IMG/VR virus record: IMGVR_UViG_3300033992_000391 | Coordinates: 1 to 44,947 of that record | Length of the DNA: 44,947 nucleotides | From: a virus | Reading direction: 5' to 3' (one strand) | Shown: in pieces, positions 1-44,947 of the stretch | Layout of the letters: every line of letters begins with the position of its first letter | Numbering within the stretch: the stretch's first letter is position 1 | Position numbers and translations under genes: made by a program | The notes under the pieces: model-generated | The model's input: only the letters and a program-made list of their open reading frames with translations | Told to the model about the DNA's origin: nothing | Databases searched by the model: none

Positions 1-127
1 GTATCTCGGAGTGGTCTTGTCCTTAGCGGTGGCACAGTTATGACGGGCGCGGAAGGACTTGCGACGGGCAGGGTTGTCCTTCTTGATCGTCATATTCGGG
101 TCACCGAAGCGGACAATCTTCGTCTTA
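1..127. repeat. 127-bp terminal direct repeat, left copy
   Basis: Identical base for base to 44821-44947. The 80-codon gene on the minus strand runs in frame from here into 44820 and below, which shows that the two ends join. A 127-base overlap is what a de Bruijn assembler with k=127 leaves on a circular contig. A true short terminal repeat of the virion DNA cannot be excluded from sequence alone. Confidence 0.97.
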
Positions 128-486: not shown

Positions 487-561
487 TGGAGCCTTGGGCC
501 GGAGTCGAACCGGCAACCCCCTGTTTACAAAACAGGCGCACTGCCATTGTGCTACCAAGGC
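487..561 (-). tRNA. tRNA-Thr (anticodon UGU), CCA encoded
   Basis: Read on the minus strand: acceptor GCCTTGG pairs perfectly with CCAAGGC; D stem GCAC/GTGC; anticodon stem CCTGT/ACAGG with loop TTTGTAA, giving anticodon UGU (threonine, ACA); T stem GCCGG/CCGGC with loop TTCGACT. The discriminator base is U and it is followed by a genomically encoded CCA (489-487). All stems are intact, so the tRNA looks functional. It lies inside the late operon and may supplement decoding of ACA/ACN codons. Confidence 0.95.
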
Positions 562-10475: not shown

Positions 10476-10952
10476 TTATTCCGATTTGGTCGGTTCTTCT
10501 GGCGGAATGTCGATGACCAAACTGTTGGCATCCAGCAACTTATTGATGTCGTCGGCAGAAATCCTCAACTCTGCTTTGATGTTCACAGTTGGCGTGGGAT
10601 CGACCAACTTGTCCAACTTGTCGATGGCAATAGCAGTGGAGAGCATCAACTGACCCAGCGGGATACCATCCACTTCAGACTCCAAGCGTTCAGTCGCCTT
10701 GCTTACAAATGATGCGAGCCTGGCAGCAGTCTTGCGCTTGAAGGAAAGGATGTCGAGTTGGCCGGAGTCGGCGAGTTGATGTTTGATTTCGGTGACAGTC
10801 TTCGGCTCGACGGCGGTCAACTTGGCTGCCTCTGGAGAGGGTACGCCCTGCTTAAGCAACTCCTCGATCCGCTTGACTGTAGCCTTCGGCAACTTCTTGC
10901 CAGCGTCCGGGTTGTTCTCAGCCAGCCGTTCAAACTTCGGGTCAGTATCCAT
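10476..10952 (-). CDS. HTH DNA-binding protein, candidate small terminase or regulator (158 aa)
   Basis: ATG at 10952-10950. Residues about 18-60 form a homeodomain-like helix-turn-helix (KATVKRIEELLKQGVPSPEAAKLTAVEPKTVTEIKHQ), followed by a helical oligomerisation-type region (FKRKTAARLASFVSKATERLESEVDGIPLGQLMLSTAIAIDKL) and an acidic C-terminal tail. That architecture is common in phage small terminases, and none is found beside TerL. However, the gene faces the replication operon across a 52-bp divergent promoter, a classic place for a regulator. I cannot choose between the two. Confidence 0.8.
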   Translation of the reverse strand: MDTDPKFERLAENNPDAGKKLPKATVKRIEELLKQGVPSPEAAKLTAVEPKTVTEIKHQLADSGQLDILSFKRKTAARLASFVSKATERLESEVDGIPLGQLMLSTAIAIDKLDKLVDPTPTVNIKAELRISADDINKLLDANSLVIDIPPEEPTKSE

Positions 10953-11004
10953 AAAGTCAATATGCCACCTTGACCAATGGAAGCAAGCCGGAGTAACACA
11001 TCAT
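10953..11004. promoter_or_regulatory. Divergent promoter region
   Basis: Only 52 bases separate the two divergent operons. TTGACC at 10970-10975 is followed 18 bases later by TAACAC (10994-10999), which would put the plus-strand start of transcription at or next to the RusA ATG at 11005. A minus-strand TTGACT lies at 10960-10955. Any protein bound here would affect both operons. Confidence 0.5.
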
Positions 11005-11433
11005 ATGCCTCTCATCGCATTACGTATTAAACCGCCACCTACGCACCAAGCTGCGCTTCGCATCCTCAAGAACAAGAAGACGGGGGCGATGTTCGTAGGC
11101 AAGATGGCTAAGTCCTCCGCCAAGAAGTGGGGGGTTGAGTTCACCGCCCTATTGCGTGAGGCCAAGTCCAAGTTCCAGGTCAAGACCTACAAGGAGGCCA
11201 CAAGGGTGGGTATCGTATTCGTCTACCCTCATACCAAACAGTCCGCTAAGTCCGGGCATAGCATCCCCAAGGTAACCAGGCCGGACGTAGATAACCTAGC
11301 CAAGTCCGTGCTGGATTGTATGGTGGATGCCGGTTGGCTGGAGGACGACAACCTGATCGTCGAACTCATCCTCAAGAAGATTCATTCAGAGACGGCGCAA
11401 GTTGTCATTGACATTGACGATTACGTTGAGTAA
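11005..11433 (+). CDS. RusA-like Holliday junction resolvase (142 aa)
   Basis: Cuts Holliday junctions and branched DNA, typically to resolve replication or recombination intermediates before packaging. Family signature: RPDVDNLAKSVLDCMVDAG (residues about 93-111), then WLEDDNLIVEL with the acidic metal-binding residues and a Lys-rich ILKKIH. Length fits the family (about 120-140). Start ATG at 11005, 35 nt after a TTGACC box; longer in-frame readings run into the divergent gene. First gene of the replication operon. Confidence 0.93.
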   Translation: MPLIALRIKPPPTHQAALRILKNKKTGAMFVGKMAKSSAKKWGVEFTALLREAKSKFQVKTYKEATRVGIVFVYPHTKQSAKSGHSIPKVTRPDVDNLAKSVLDCMVDAGWLEDDNLIVELILKKIHSETAQVVIDIDDYVE

Positions 11434-11451: not shown

Positions 11452-12258
11452 ATGAGCAAATACAACAAAATCATCAGCGGGCTGTCGTTCGCTGAATACA
11501 AGAAGAACCCCGGCGTTAACGCTTCTTACCTCAAGAAGTTCAACGTCTCCCCCCTGTTCGCTGAGACCGACACTTTCGAGTCGTCGGCTGCTACCGATCT
11601 AGGGAACTACGTCCACGCCTTGACCATCGACCAAGGCACTCTGGAGAACTTCGCCTGCCTGCCCACCACCGGGGAAGGTAGCAAGACCGCCCGTGCCAAG
11701 TGGCGCGACGAACACCCCGATGGCATCCTCCTCTCTCCGTCCCAGATGGAGCAGGGCAAGGCCACCGCTGACAAGTTGAAGGCGTTCCCTTACTTCGCTG
11801 AACTGATGGGTCGCACCGGCATCGACACCGAGGTCACCCTGTTCTGCGAGCATCCCAAGTACGGCTGGCCGATGAAGGCTCGCATCGATATCCTGGCGAT
11901 GGATGGTGACGAGATTTACCTTGGGGACGTGAAGACTTACGGCAAGGCTCTGACCAAGAAGCAACTGTTCTGGGATATCCGTGACCGGGGCTACGACTTG
12001 CAGCTCGCCCACTATCGTCGTTGTCTCCAGATCGTCCTCAACAAGAGTCCCAAGGAGATGGCCCTGTACTTCTGCGAGACGGAGACGGCAGCCCACGACT
12101 GCGCCAAGGTCATCCTCGACGAAGGCTGGCTGGCCCACGCCGAACTCCGGCTGGACGAGTACTACCGCCTGTACAACGAGTGCCACGAATCTGGGGTCTA
12201 TCCGGGCTTCAACTTCGGCAAGCCTCTGACCCTCACGCTGGGAGACACCCTGTCGTGA
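11452..12258 (+). CDS. RecE-like PD-(D/E)XK exonuclease (268 aa)
   Basis: Probable 5'-3' exonuclease that makes 3' single strands for the Rad52-like annealase encoded downstream. Signature of the phage exodeoxyribonuclease VIII-type PDDEXK family: ATDLGNYVHALTID (about 46-59), WPMKARIDILAMDGDEIYLGDVKTYG with the catalytic D...DVK (about 140-165), and YDLQLAHYRRCLQ with the conserved Gln (about 183-195). Start ATGAGCAAA preceded by CTCACCT. It ends in a GTGA overlap with the initiator gene. Confidence 0.93.
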   Translation: MSKYNKIISGLSFAEYKKNPGVNASYLKKFNVSPLFAETDTFESSAATDLGNYVHALTIDQGTLENFACLPTTGEGSKTARAKWRDEHPDGILLSPSQMEQGKATADKLKAFPYFAELMGRTGIDTEVTLFCEHPKYGWPMKARIDILAMDGDEIYLGDVKTYGKALTKKQLFWDIRDRGYDLQLAHYRRCLQIVLNKSPKEMALYFCETETAAHDCAKVILDEGWLAHAELRLDEYYRLYNECHESGVYPGFNFGKPLTLTLGDTLS

Positions 12259-12911
12259 CCGCACCAAAGGAAGGGTTCGGCCTCTGGATTCCAGGGGCTA
12301 TCCTCTCACGCCTAGAACTCAGCCTGGAGGAGAAGTGCCTCTACGGGCTTCTGGAGGTCTTGGACGGGGGCAAGGGGTGCTGGGCATCCAACGACTGGCT
12401 TGCGAGCCGTCTAGGGGTCAGCGAGAGGGCAGTACAGCGATACCTCGCAAGGTTGGAGGAGGTAGGTCTGGTCATCAAGGTCATCAATGAAGCCGCCGGT
12501 AACCAGCGCCGGGTGCAGACCATCGGATCGTATTCTGCCTCATCCACCCAATGCCAACTTGACGTGACCCTCACGCCAGACTGTCGTGACCCTCACGCCA
12601 ATCTGTCACCCAAGAGTAGAAAAGAGAATAGAAAAGAGATAGATACAATCCCCTTACCCCTTCCTCACGGCGAGAACTTTGCCAAGGCTTGGGGGGAGTG
12701 GATTAACTATCGGACTAAGACGAAGAAGAAGTTGTCTGCCTTCGCCCAGGAGAAGCAACTCAAGCTGCTTGCCGTCATCACCGAACAGGAAGCGGTTGAG
12801 TGCATTAACCGATCTATCGCCAACGACTGGCAGGGTCTGTTCCCAGAGAAGCGTAATAGTAAACCTTTTACCAAAATCTTAACCCGTGAAGACCACAATA
12901 ATGGATTCTAA
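12255..12911 (+). CDS. HTH replication initiation protein (218 aa)
   Basis: The GTG at 12255 overlaps the upstream TGA; the longer reading from 12021 only shadows the nuclease. N-terminal winged helix (residues about 10-80: WASNDWLASRLGVSERAVQRYLARLEEVGLV), basic Ser-rich linker, and C-terminal helical domain (WGEWINYRTKTKKKLS...ECINRSIANDWQGLF) of the type that follows in phage O-like/DnaD-like initiators and contacts the helicase loader. The next gene is that loader. Likely binds the phage origin and brings in host DnaB. The origin could lie inside the gene, as in lambda O, but no clear iterons are seen. Confidence 0.88.
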   Translation: MTAPKEGFGLWIPGAILSRLELSLEEKCLYGLLEVLDGGKGCWASNDWLASRLGVSERAVQRYLARLEEVGLVIKVINEAAGNQRRVQTIGSYSASSTQCQLDVTLTPDCRDPHANLSPKSRKENRKEIDTIPLPLPHGENFAKAWGEWINYRTKTKKKLSAFAQEKQLKLLAVITEQEAVECINRSIANDWQGLFPEKRNSKPFTKILTREDHNNGF

Positions 12912-13602
12912 GCACAAGCCATTCTGCAACGGATGCAAGGGGCCGCTGACCCCTGTGTACGACCCAGCAAAGAAGACATTCATCACCAAGTATTTCACGT
13001 GCCGTGCTTGCGCTGACTCCGGCAAAGCGACATACTGGGATTACCCTTTTGAGTATGCCAAAGTCTTCGAGAAGCACGGGTACATCTGGCTGGATCGTCA
13101 TCCAGAATATCCCGCTGCCTTCATCGACACGGACATCACGCGCCTGTCCAACAACCTCCAGCGAGCCTCGACCTGGACACCGGGAGACAAGGCAAGCCTG
13201 CTGCTCCACGGCACGACTGGGACGGGCAAGACCCGCACGGCTTGGGTAGTCTTCAATCGTCTTTGGTATAATGCTTTCCCAGACAAGGCGGTGTGGTTGC
13301 CGATGCGTAAACTTGAGATGGCAATCGAGAAGGGATTCGACGACCACAAGCACGGACAGGTGCTGGACTATTTCTGCAACGTCCCGCTATTGGCCTTCGA
13401 CGATCTGGGGAAGGAACGACTGACCGCCCGTATGGAGTCCGACCTGTTCGCCATCCTCGACGAACGCACCAGCAATCTGCGTACTACAATCATCACTACG
13501 AATTATAATGGCACAACCCTCCTCGACAGATTTAACAATAAGGAAACAGGAGAGGCAATCCTACGCAGGCTACGTGAGTATTACCAAGTAATCGCAATAT
13601 GA
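12901..13602 (+). CDS. DnaC-like AAA+ helicase loader (233 aa)
   Basis: ATPase that loads the host replicative helicase. N-terminal zinc finger (CNGCKGPL...FTCRACADSG, residues 8-40), Walker A HGTTGTGKTRTAW (about 100), Walker B LLAFDDLGKE (about 163), sensor I TTIITTNYN (about 200) and an arginine-finger helix GEAILRRLREYY near the end. ATG at 12901, overlapping the initiator by 11 bases; a GTG at 12886 in frame is an alternative. The initiator and loader pair, with no DNA polymerase or helicase gene, points to host-dependent replication. Confidence 0.94.
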   Translation: MDSKHKPFCNGCKGPLTPVYDPAKKTFITKYFTCRACADSGKATYWDYPFEYAKVFEKHGYIWLDRHPEYPAAFIDTDITRLSNNLQRASTWTPGDKASLLLHGTTGTGKTRTAWVVFNRLWYNAFPDKAVWLPMRKLEMAIEKGFDDHKHGQVLDYFCNVPLLAFDDLGKERLTARMESDLFAILDERTSNLRTTIITTNYNGTTLLDRFNNKETGEAILRRLREYYQVIAI

Positions 13603-14084
13603 ACAACTTTGAGTTCTCAAAAAAGGGCCACGACGAGTGGCTGACTCCGAAGTATATTACGGACGCTCTTGCTCCGTTCGATCTAGACCCGTGTTCCCCT
13701 ATCAACAGGCCGTGGGATACGGCCGCCACACATTGGCATAAGGACGACGACGGACTGTCTAAGGAGTGGAAGGGTTTCGTGTGGATGAACCCTCCATATG
13801 GACGTGAGACTGCCAAGTGGATGTTCAGGCTCAAACACCACGGCGACGGCATCGCCCTTATCTTTGTCCGCACGGAGACGGCGTCATTTTTTAAACACGT
13901 GTGGGGAAGTGCTTCTGCGATTTTATTCATCAAGGGAAGGCTGTCGTTTTGTTACGTAGACGGACAACCGGCCAAAGCAGCTGGCGCTCCATCGTGTCTT
14001 ATCGCATACGGAGATCGTGCGGTGGAACGCTTAGAGAACGCACTTAGCACTGGAAAGATCAAGGGATACATTGTTCATCTATGA
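13599..14084 (+). CDS. Phage DNA N6-adenine methyltransferase (161 aa)
   Basis: Methylates adenine N6 in DNA with S-adenosylmethionine. It belongs to the compact phage Dam type: EWLTPKYITDALAPFDLDPCS (residues 13-33), catalytic NPPYGRE (about 65), IALIFVRTETASFF, and C-terminal AAGAPSCLIAYG. Length of about 160 is typical. ATGA overlap with the helicase loader and with the next gene. With the cytosine methyltransferase of the other operon the phage can mark both bases; the target site cannot be read from sequence. Confidence 0.93.
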   Translation: MNNFEFSKKGHDEWLTPKYITDALAPFDLDPCSPINRPWDTAATHWHKDDDGLSKEWKGFVWMNPPYGRETAKWMFRLKHHGDGIALIFVRTETASFFKHVWGSASAILFIKGRLSFCYVDGQPAKAAGAPSCLIAYGDRAVERLENALSTGKIKGYIVHL

Positions 14085-14350
14085 GTAACAACAACTCCAA
14101 TCTTACCCTCAAGCAGATGGACTCCGCCTTCCCCCCTATGAGGTGGATGGTTACCAGCCAGAGCCGTAAGAACGTGGCGCATAGCGTAGACCTGTACGCC
14201 GGGAGCTGCACGTGCGAGGAGTACGTCTTCCGTCTGAATGGCAAGGACAGCCAGGTTCCCCCTGCCCTGCGTAAGTGCAAACATATCCGGGCCGTGCGGG
14301 AAAAGGTGGCTGATATTATAATCGAATACAATGTGAAGATTCGTGCTTGA
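14081..14350 (+). CDS. SWIM zinc-finger-like protein (89 aa)
   Basis: GSCTCEEYVFR (residues 46-56) and KCKHIRAV (about 69-76) give the CxC...CxH pattern of the SWIM zinc finger, here with an insert that suits the longer spacing known in phage versions. SWIM proteins bind DNA or proteins and often work with recombination factors. ATGA overlap with the methyltransferase; starts ATGAGTAAC. Confidence 0.82.
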   Translation: MSNNNSNLTLKQMDSAFPPMRWMVTSQSRKNVAHSVDLYAGSCTCEEYVFRLNGKDSQVPPALRKCKHIRAVREKVADIIIEYNVKIRA

Positions 14351-15385: not shown

Positions 15386-16297
15386 ATGTCCAACGATACC
15401 AACCCAATGAGCAACGAAATCATCAACAAACTCCGCGCCCCGTTCGGCCCTGACCGAATCGAGTGGCGACTCCAGTCGTCCGGCAAGAAGCAGGACGGCT
15501 CCTTCTGGGCGAAGTGCCTCGCCTACATCGACAATCGTGCGGCGATGGAACGCCTCGACGAAGTCTATGGTATGAACTGGTCGCACTCCGAAGAGTTCAA
15601 GCAGATCGGCAATCAGGCTGTCTGCACTGTGACCATCACCATCGAGTCCCGCAACGAAGGCGTGGCCCTGTTCCCCTATCGCTCCGTCACCGGCTCTTGT
15701 GCCGTGGAAGCCAACGGCGACATCGACCCGTTCAAGTCCGCTGCCTCTGGCGCTATGAAAAGGGCCGTGGTGAACCTGGGCATTGGCCGTTATTTATATG
15801 ACTTGCCGGAAGCCTGGGCCATCATCGACCCGAACGGCAAGTATCAGGGTGCGACCAAGGACAAGCAGTACTTCAAGTGGAATCCGCCCCAGCTGCCTGC
15901 GTGGGCCGGTGGTGGTGCTGACACTAACTACGTCGCCAACGCTTCTCATCACGAAGAGGTCGCCAACGCCCCTGCCTATGTCGCAAGCAAGCCTCAAGGC
16001 TACACCGCCCCGGCTCCTGCCCCCGTCGTCTCTGACGGCACGTGGCGTACTGTGGTCATCCCGTTCGGCAAGCAGCAGGGTCAGACCCTTGGTCAACTCA
16101 ACCCCGGCTCCCTCAAGTGGTGGCGCGAGAACTACCAGCCGAAGCCTTACAAGGGTAAGATTTCGGACAAGGACAAGGCGTTCCGTCTCGCTCTCGACCA
16201 GTCCGCTGAAGCCTATCAGCCGATGCCCGGACTGCCCACCGCCAGCAAGGACGAAGTAATCATTGACGAACCCCCGGCTGACGACGTTCCGTTCTAA
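15386..16297 (+). CDS. Rad52/22-family single-strand annealing protein with SSB-like tail (303 aa)
   Basis: Anneals complementary single strands made by the RecE-like nuclease. The Rad52 core spans about residues 10-155: AYIDNRAAMERLDEVYGMNW and RSVTGSCAVEANGDIDPFKSAASGAMKRAVVNLGIGRYLYDLPE. After a Pro/Ala-rich linker, residues about 212-270 (VVIPFGKQQGQTLGQLNPGSLKWW) resemble the small domain found at the C-terminus of exodeoxyribonuclease X-like proteins. The last residues, IIDEPPADDVPF, match the acidic tip by which bacterial SSB recruits repair proteins. The combination is unusual. Confidence 0.92.
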   Translation: MSNDTNPMSNEIINKLRAPFGPDRIEWRLQSSGKKQDGSFWAKCLAYIDNRAAMERLDEVYGMNWSHSEEFKQIGNQAVCTVTITIESRNEGVALFPYRSVTGSCAVEANGDIDPFKSAASGAMKRAVVNLGIGRYLYDLPEAWAIIDPNGKYQGATKDKQYFKWNPPQLPAWAGGGADTNYVANASHHEEVANAPAYVASKPQGYTAPAPAPVVSDGTWRTVVIPFGKQQGQTLGQLNPGSLKWWRENYQPKPYKGKISDKDKAFRLALDQSAEAYQPMPGLPTASKDEVIIDEPPADDVPF

Positions 16298-44803: not shown

Positions 44804-44947
44804 CAGGCTTTACAACTCCAGTATCTCGGAGTGGTCTTGTCCTTAGCGGTGGCACAGTTATGACGGGCGCGGAAGGACTTGCGACGGGCAGGGTTGTCCT
44901 TCTTGATCGTCATATTCGGGTCACCGAAGCGGACAATCTTCGTCTTA
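44800..44947 (-). CDS. Conserved small phage protein, C-terminal part on the right end
   Basis: Same gene as the one at 1-222. Its TGA is at 44802-44800, and the first bases of the window repeat here, so this end shows the last 49 codons. The GTGA overlap with terL is visible only at this end. Confidence 0.85.
   Translation of the reverse strand, partial: KTKIVRFGDPNMTIKKDNPARRKSFRARHNCATAKDKTTPRYWSCKAW
44821..44947. repeat. 127-bp terminal direct repeat, right copy
   Basis: Exact copy of 1-127; see the left copy. The unique genome is therefore 44,820 bp. Confidence 0.97.

Follow-up and report, generated by a model that had tools for sequence, protein, structure and literature searches.

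A conserved SSB-like C-terminal tip on a clade of phage Rad52/Erf-type annealing proteins

The window analyzed here, a stretch of 44,947 nucleotides covering the whole of one viral record, encodes a Rad52/Erf-type single-strand annealing protein that ends in DDVPF, a tip resembling that of bacterial SSB. Judged by comparison with its relatives, the tip is a real, conserved and clade-specific feature. It gives a protein of a known kind an architecture that is new, the function of which we infer. The present analysis established the architecture, its conservation and its single origin, and found no phage SSB gene. We give an about even chance to the annealase being a phage Rad52/Erf-type protein with a tethered recruiting motif of the SSB-Ct type.

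Results

A preliminary description of the window had located the annealase gene and assigned its product a Rad52 core, and both were confirmed. The ORF stands as given in Table 1, its product ends in ...IIDEPPADDVPF, and it matches PF04098 (Rad52_Rad22; E 1.5e-15, 57.9 bits against a cut-off of 20.3, residues 10-146) and the Erf-like family phrog_1097 (E 1.2e-45). The true start may be residue 8 (MSNEIINK; 15407), which is the start used in several relatives. From N to C terminus the Rad52 core is followed by a Pro/Ala linker predicted to be disordered, the PFGK..G module, a second, variable linker and finally DDVPF. The AlphaFold2 model (mean pLDDT 71.4), for which 27 family members were aligned, predicts the core and module well, treats residues 178-216 and 279-303 as disordered and leaves the tip unplaced (pLDDT 36-40, blocks 281-303). 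Pro-Phe preceded by acidic residues stands, as in SSB-Ct, at the extreme C terminus of a disordered tail. Core and module are spaced by 36-79 residues in the family (n=43 members). The tail fits a tethered motif, being disordered and having a linker of 7-22 residues (n=42 tip-bearing annealases measured).

Table 1. Positions of the annealase, its parts and associated features in the window
Feature	Position	Strand	Basis or remark
Direct terminal repeat, 127 bp exact	1..127, second copy 44821-44947	+	genome complete as assembled
RusA-like Holliday junction resolvase	10948..11433	+	phrog_140 E 4.7e-18; 26/42 family loci
RecE/exonuclease VIII-like PDDEXK nuclease	11452..12258	+	PF12684 E 6.9e-12, phrog_412 E 1.4e-29; 21/42 loci
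O-like replication initiation protein	12273..12911	+	phrog_678 E 5.2e-18; 33/42 loci
DnaC-like helicase loader	12886..13602	+	phrog_50 E 4.4e-22; 37/42 loci
Rad52/Erf-type single-strand annealing protein, 303 aa	15386..16297	+	ORF, PF04098, phrog_1097
Rad52_Rad22 core	15413..15823	+	residues 10-146 by Pfam; fold to about residue 177
Pro/Ala-rich linker, predicted disordered	15917..16033	+	residues 178-216, pLDDT <50
PFGK..G module, ExoX-C/DUF3820-like	16040..16216	+	residues 219-277
Variable tail linker	16217..16279	+	residues 278-298; pLDDT <50 across 279-303
SSB-Ct-like tip DDVPF	16280..16294	+	residues 299-303; stop 16295-16297

Human RAD52 (1kn0_A) was the top VIA-align match of the AlphaFold core (Z 10.8, 3.4 A over 130 residues), accompanied by 8bjm_B (Z 10.8), 80alpha Sak (9.3) and Mgm101 (9.3), with dsRBDs lower at 6-7. 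Foldseek, run on the whole model, found nothing at E <= 0.001, and PDB sequence searches returned weak rows only. Family and fold indicate that the core would bind and anneal single strands. There was no match in the protein to PF00436, the OB-fold SSB domain, so the earlier suggestion that the annealase may stand in for SSB cannot mean OB-fold coverage of the strand and would apply to a recruiting role only. The layout of ssDNA-binding core, disordered linker and tip is SSB's, except that a Rad52 fold takes the place of the OB fold and a small module has been inserted.

Of the 49 related contigs whose 3' end can be read, 48 keep the tip as [DE][DEN][VI]PF. These 48 are all 36 relatives from a protein-query search, each ending [DE][DE].PF, 11 of the 12 readable contigs from a profile search, and L087, a divergent relative (47% in its best segment). 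The profile search had added 13 contigs, one of which (L082) is cut before the 3' end and another (L078:4533-5414) is the sole tip-less member, an intact ORF ending NSDPY. Over 47 annealases, excluding the near-duplicates L002, L004 and L011 and the cut L082, the entropy of the last five columns was 0.15, 0, 0.49, 1.19 and 0.30 bits, and that of columns -6 to -40 was 1.9-3.3 bits; synonymous codons at the tip vary in the same set (four for Pro, four for Val, two for Asp). Like the SSB tip, the ending consists of acidic residues, a hydrophobic residue at -3, a Pro that is invariant and a Phe that hardly varies, a correspondence that exceeds what a merely acidic tail would require. Absence of the tip from relatives had been named beforehand as the outcome that would tell against the preliminary description, and the survey instead favored it.

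This conservation, together with the ORF controls below, rules out a chance ending of the annealase. A tip forced by an overlapping gene was also considered and rejected: some relatives have a possible next-gene start 13-19 bases before the annealase stop, but the next plus-strand start in the window lies 19 bases past it, so overlap cannot explain the whole clade. It is highly improbable that the ending is a fusion relic or an accident with no present function. In P22-like phages erf directly precedes ssb, so that the two genes might have been joined at their 3' ends by a deletion, and loss of the tip in L078 would also suit a relic; against this, all readable relatives but one, the divergent L087 included, retain the tip through synonymous change, and the next gene of the window begins beyond the annealase stop. 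Such conservation leaves the relic or chance reading strongly disfavored.

The ending is also specific. The 510 loci examined contain 24,928 distinct ORFs with a length of 60 aa or more, of which 92 end in [DE][DEN][VILM]PF, namely 37 SSBs, 47 family annealases and 8 others, seven of which resemble replication proteins, and within this set the ending is nearly confined to ssDNA-handling proteins. Two different ORFs of Staphylococcus phages share the SSB-tip-like C terminus ...DAFQRASQSSIENLPF (L336, L338, L340, L344, L346, L353, L361, L372), and both types are apparently replication proteins.

Within the Rad52/Erf annealases the tip was present in 47 of 206 distinct proteins, or in 15 of 65 clusters at 70% identity, with no mixed cluster and with the tip absent throughout the 50 tip-less clusters. 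In a quick core-based tree of 63 cluster representatives, in which 26 of 60 inner branches are weak, the tip bearers and L078 form one group (SH-aLRT 95), in which L078 is nested among the tip bearers and has a long branch. The simplest account of these relationships would be that the tip was acquired once, where the clade begins, and lost once, in L078. That the tip is a general property of annealases was rejected for the sample, since the Erf, RecT and Sak proteins sampled lack it. In these samples, which are small for RecT, PF04404 Erf and Sak, it occurred in none of the 54 RecT and PF04404 viral loci read (58 were found, with L425, L439, L449 and L454 left out; L418 and L430 gave just 8-10-residue frames and are uninformative), none of the 13 bacterial PF04404/RecT ORFs recovered from 19 sought, and none of 80 Sak loci, all of which share one ending. 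A separate observation is that 24 of the 50 tip-less Rad52/Erf clusters end in Ala-Ala, versus 724 of 18,309 locus ORFs (L135, L209, L215, L220, L242, L250-L285 and others); an ending like a ClpXP degron may be common among annealases, with many of these clusters being related Clostridia sequences.

The preliminary description had called the tip very like SSB DDDIPF, which holds for the acidic and Pro-Phe pattern and fails for an exact copy. The window annealase has Val at the third-last position, where Ile or Leu is expected of an SSB tip, and so do 44 of 47 annealase tips, the other three having Ile; of 73 SSBs ending in PF, 44 have Leu here and 26 Ile, and not one has Val. A further 35 phage and bacterial SSB-like ORFs include 26 that end in PF, and a single one of these has Val at -3, an SSB with the ending EDVPF from the record of outgroup phage L505. 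The -3 residue is the chief finding against a plain SSB copy. Val at -3 suggests a partner or affinity unlike that of the standard SSB tip, and would fit either a different partner or inheritance from an SSB like that of L505.

Alternatively, the tip could act inside the annealase, docking on the ssDNA groove or on a neighboring subunit (core or PFGK module) and controlling binding and ring or filament formation in the manner of the T7 gp2.5 and HSV ICP8 tails, which we consider rather unlikely. The distinct Val would suit the protein's own docking site, and tip and module co-occur in the clade. Precedents are reported as well, in that a motif in the disordered tail of ICP8 docks on the neighboring monomer and is required for annealing (PMC12409425) and the C-terminal tail of several SSBs can inhibit DNA binding (PMC9917605). 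However, AlphaFold leaves the tip free, and its pLDDT of 58 in a module-only model, compared with 44-48 for the linker, is too weak to count; the variable linker length neither demands nor forbids a fixed site.

The window genome is complete as assembled, as indicated by the exact direct terminal repeat. No SSB (PF00436) was found in its six frames and no PHROG SSB among the 30 window ORFs scanned, so that, with respect to homologues, the phage indeed has no recognizable SSB, as previously noted. PF00436 was above cut-off in none of the 48 tip-bearing records (27 and 21 searched), of which 11 are at least 40 kb and the others may be fragments; one record (G008) has a sub-cut-off match (E 0.005) with an internal stop. 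There was likewise no PF00436 SSB in the 10 kb L078 contig. SSB was present in 6 of 11 tip-less records (W01, W03 and the records of L504, L505, L506 and L088), and of the nearest four outgroup phages L504, L505 and L506 have it and L508 has none. In P22-like c341, Lactococcus D4044 and 80alpha, ssb directly follows erf or sak. Because the tip arose once, its association with a missing SSB is one event, neither independent evidence nor statistical proof. Counting against a recruiting role are the 5 of 11 tip-less records that also lack SSB, and L078, which lost the tip while its ORF stayed intact. The terminase of the window phage matched a single phage record, the distantly related Phage C75C1 (31% identity), and pointed to no host; the window also carries a tRNA-Thr gene (anticodon tgt; 487-561, minus strand).

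The annealase belongs to a block with the RusA-like resolvase, RecE-like nuclease, O-like initiator, DnaC-like loader and a Dam methylase. The gene counts in Table 1 include several of the 42 family loci that are truncated, and the nuclease count leaves aside a divergent RecE-like ORF in L069, judged by eye. The RecE-like nuclease is likely the annealase's partner. A small protein at window 14081-14350, which weakly resembles a SWIM-like zinc finger (PF04434 E 0.31), occurs near the annealase in 34 of 42 family loci. Binding of the tip to a phage protein of this block, either the RecE-like nuclease or the DnaC-like loader, rather than to host proteins, seems to us quite unlikely. Nuclease-annealase pairs are common in phages, and despite this the other sampled annealases all lack the tip. 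In favor of such a partner are the conservation of the block, with the loader in most loci and the nuclease in half of them plus L069, and the pairing of nuclease and annealase in two-component viral recombination systems (PMC12409425).

The module between core and tail had been described as ExoX-C-like. The likeness stands, with HHalign giving 94.4% against ExoX-C (11 segments), but it is not exclusive, as DUF3820 is equally close (94.4%, 7 segments) and the two score 91.0% against each other. Fifty column-shuffled modules reached at most 8.0% (ExoX-C) and 2.3% (DUF3820), which groups all three with one another across some 27 columns; the alignment spans only about 27-28 columns, that is, the FGK..G motif and first helix, which the annealase module shares with the C-terminal module of E. 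coli ExoX (PF20600) and with DUF3820 (PF12843). By HMMER the window annealase has no match to PF20600 (ExoX-like_C) at E <= 1 and a weak one to PF12843 (DUF3820/QSregVF_b; E 0.32). PF12843 was matched in 15 of 27 annealase relatives scanned (E <= 1; best 3.3e-4) and was above cut-off in L077, and the L078 annealase scored 10.5 bits for PF20600, below the cut-off of 26.5. ExoX has an RNase_T (DEDDh) exonuclease domain whereas the annealase does not, PF00929 giving no match in the annealase and a positive result in the E. coli ExoX control. Module and tail together had no match when searched against phage records, and a structure model of the module alone (mean pLDDT 65.8) gave a single VIA-align row with Z >= 2, at Z 3.0. 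A literature search on the ExoX-C and DUF3820 names showed no functional study among titles and abstracts.

Discussion

It may fairly be inferred that the tip recruits SSB partners, with the binding, the partner and the benefit each presumed. Under the proposal of a tethered recruiting motif, the annealase would coat ssDNA produced by the RecE-like nuclease, displacing host SSB, while the tip would hang on a flexible, length-variable tail and be recognized by proteins with an SSB-tip pocket. DDVPF would stay presented, so that the strand could still attract host SSB-interacting proteins such as RecO, RecQ, PriA, ExoI and RecJ, or else a phage protein that has a pocket of this type. The conserved tip suggests that two jobs have been placed in one phage protein. 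A more elaborate version, which we offer tentatively and with some doubt, is that the two jobs of SSB were split anew: the annealase would cover the strand instead of SSB, having taken over the recruiting tip while the phage lost its ssb gene. It would then be a new hub through which the host's proteins for repair and replication restart read annealase-coated DNA as SSB-coated, and the choice of partners would lie with Val at -3 and the PFGK module.

A clade with an SSB tip on its annealase and no phage ssb found offers a natural test of the tip's role in recombination. The clade may also have relevance to recombineering, in which the need for a matching SSB tail is considered to restrict the hosts open to a given annealase. 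The literature search found no paper on Rad52/Erf annealases with an SSB tip, judged mostly from the opening lines of abstracts.

Several known systems are comparable in part. Bacterial SSB (PF00436, tip DDDIPF) has the same disordered tail, acidic residues, hydrophobic residue and Pro-Phe, but an OB fold and Ile or Leu at -3, in place of the Rad52 fold and Val. The tail of T7 gp2.5 is acidic with a terminal Phe. T7 gp2.5 and HSV ICP8 bind and anneal ssDNA and are reported to have a functional flexible tail, as in our proposal, although their folds are unrelated (PMC12409425, PMC9917605); the ICP8 tail is described as working between subunits via an internal FNF motif (PMC12409425). Deinococcus DdrB differs in fold from the annealase, and its SSB-like motif was reported to be unneeded for radioresistance (PMC3834827), a caution that an annealing protein can do without a tail of this kind. 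Sak4 of HK620 reportedly needs the last six residues of its SSB (tip NDYPPF; PMC5928155), and for ResT too the SSB tip is reported to be read by an annealing protein (PMC7861564). In HK620 the tip is on a separate SSB that aids Sak4, whereas here it is on the annealase itself.

P22-like Erf and the DdrA-like annealase of Lactococcus phage D4044 share the Rad52/Erf core (42-44% and 37%, respectively, over the matched core) but have neither PFGK module nor tip, and a separate ssb gene directly follows. Almost 80% of Firmicutes phage erf genes are reported to be associated with ssb (PMC8093625). Among the SSBs, 31 ORFs end HAIHAI, and many P22-like SSBs carry the extension LPFPRHAIHAI; in the SSB of Salmonella phage c341 (L038:6703-7209) this follows an internal DDDIPF, so that the protein lacks the usual free C-terminal Phe. 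In P22-like phages the small gene that immediately precedes erf (a 79-aa ORF in L095 and L170; L038:5786-5986) has an SSB-tip-like end, PDELPF or PSELPF.
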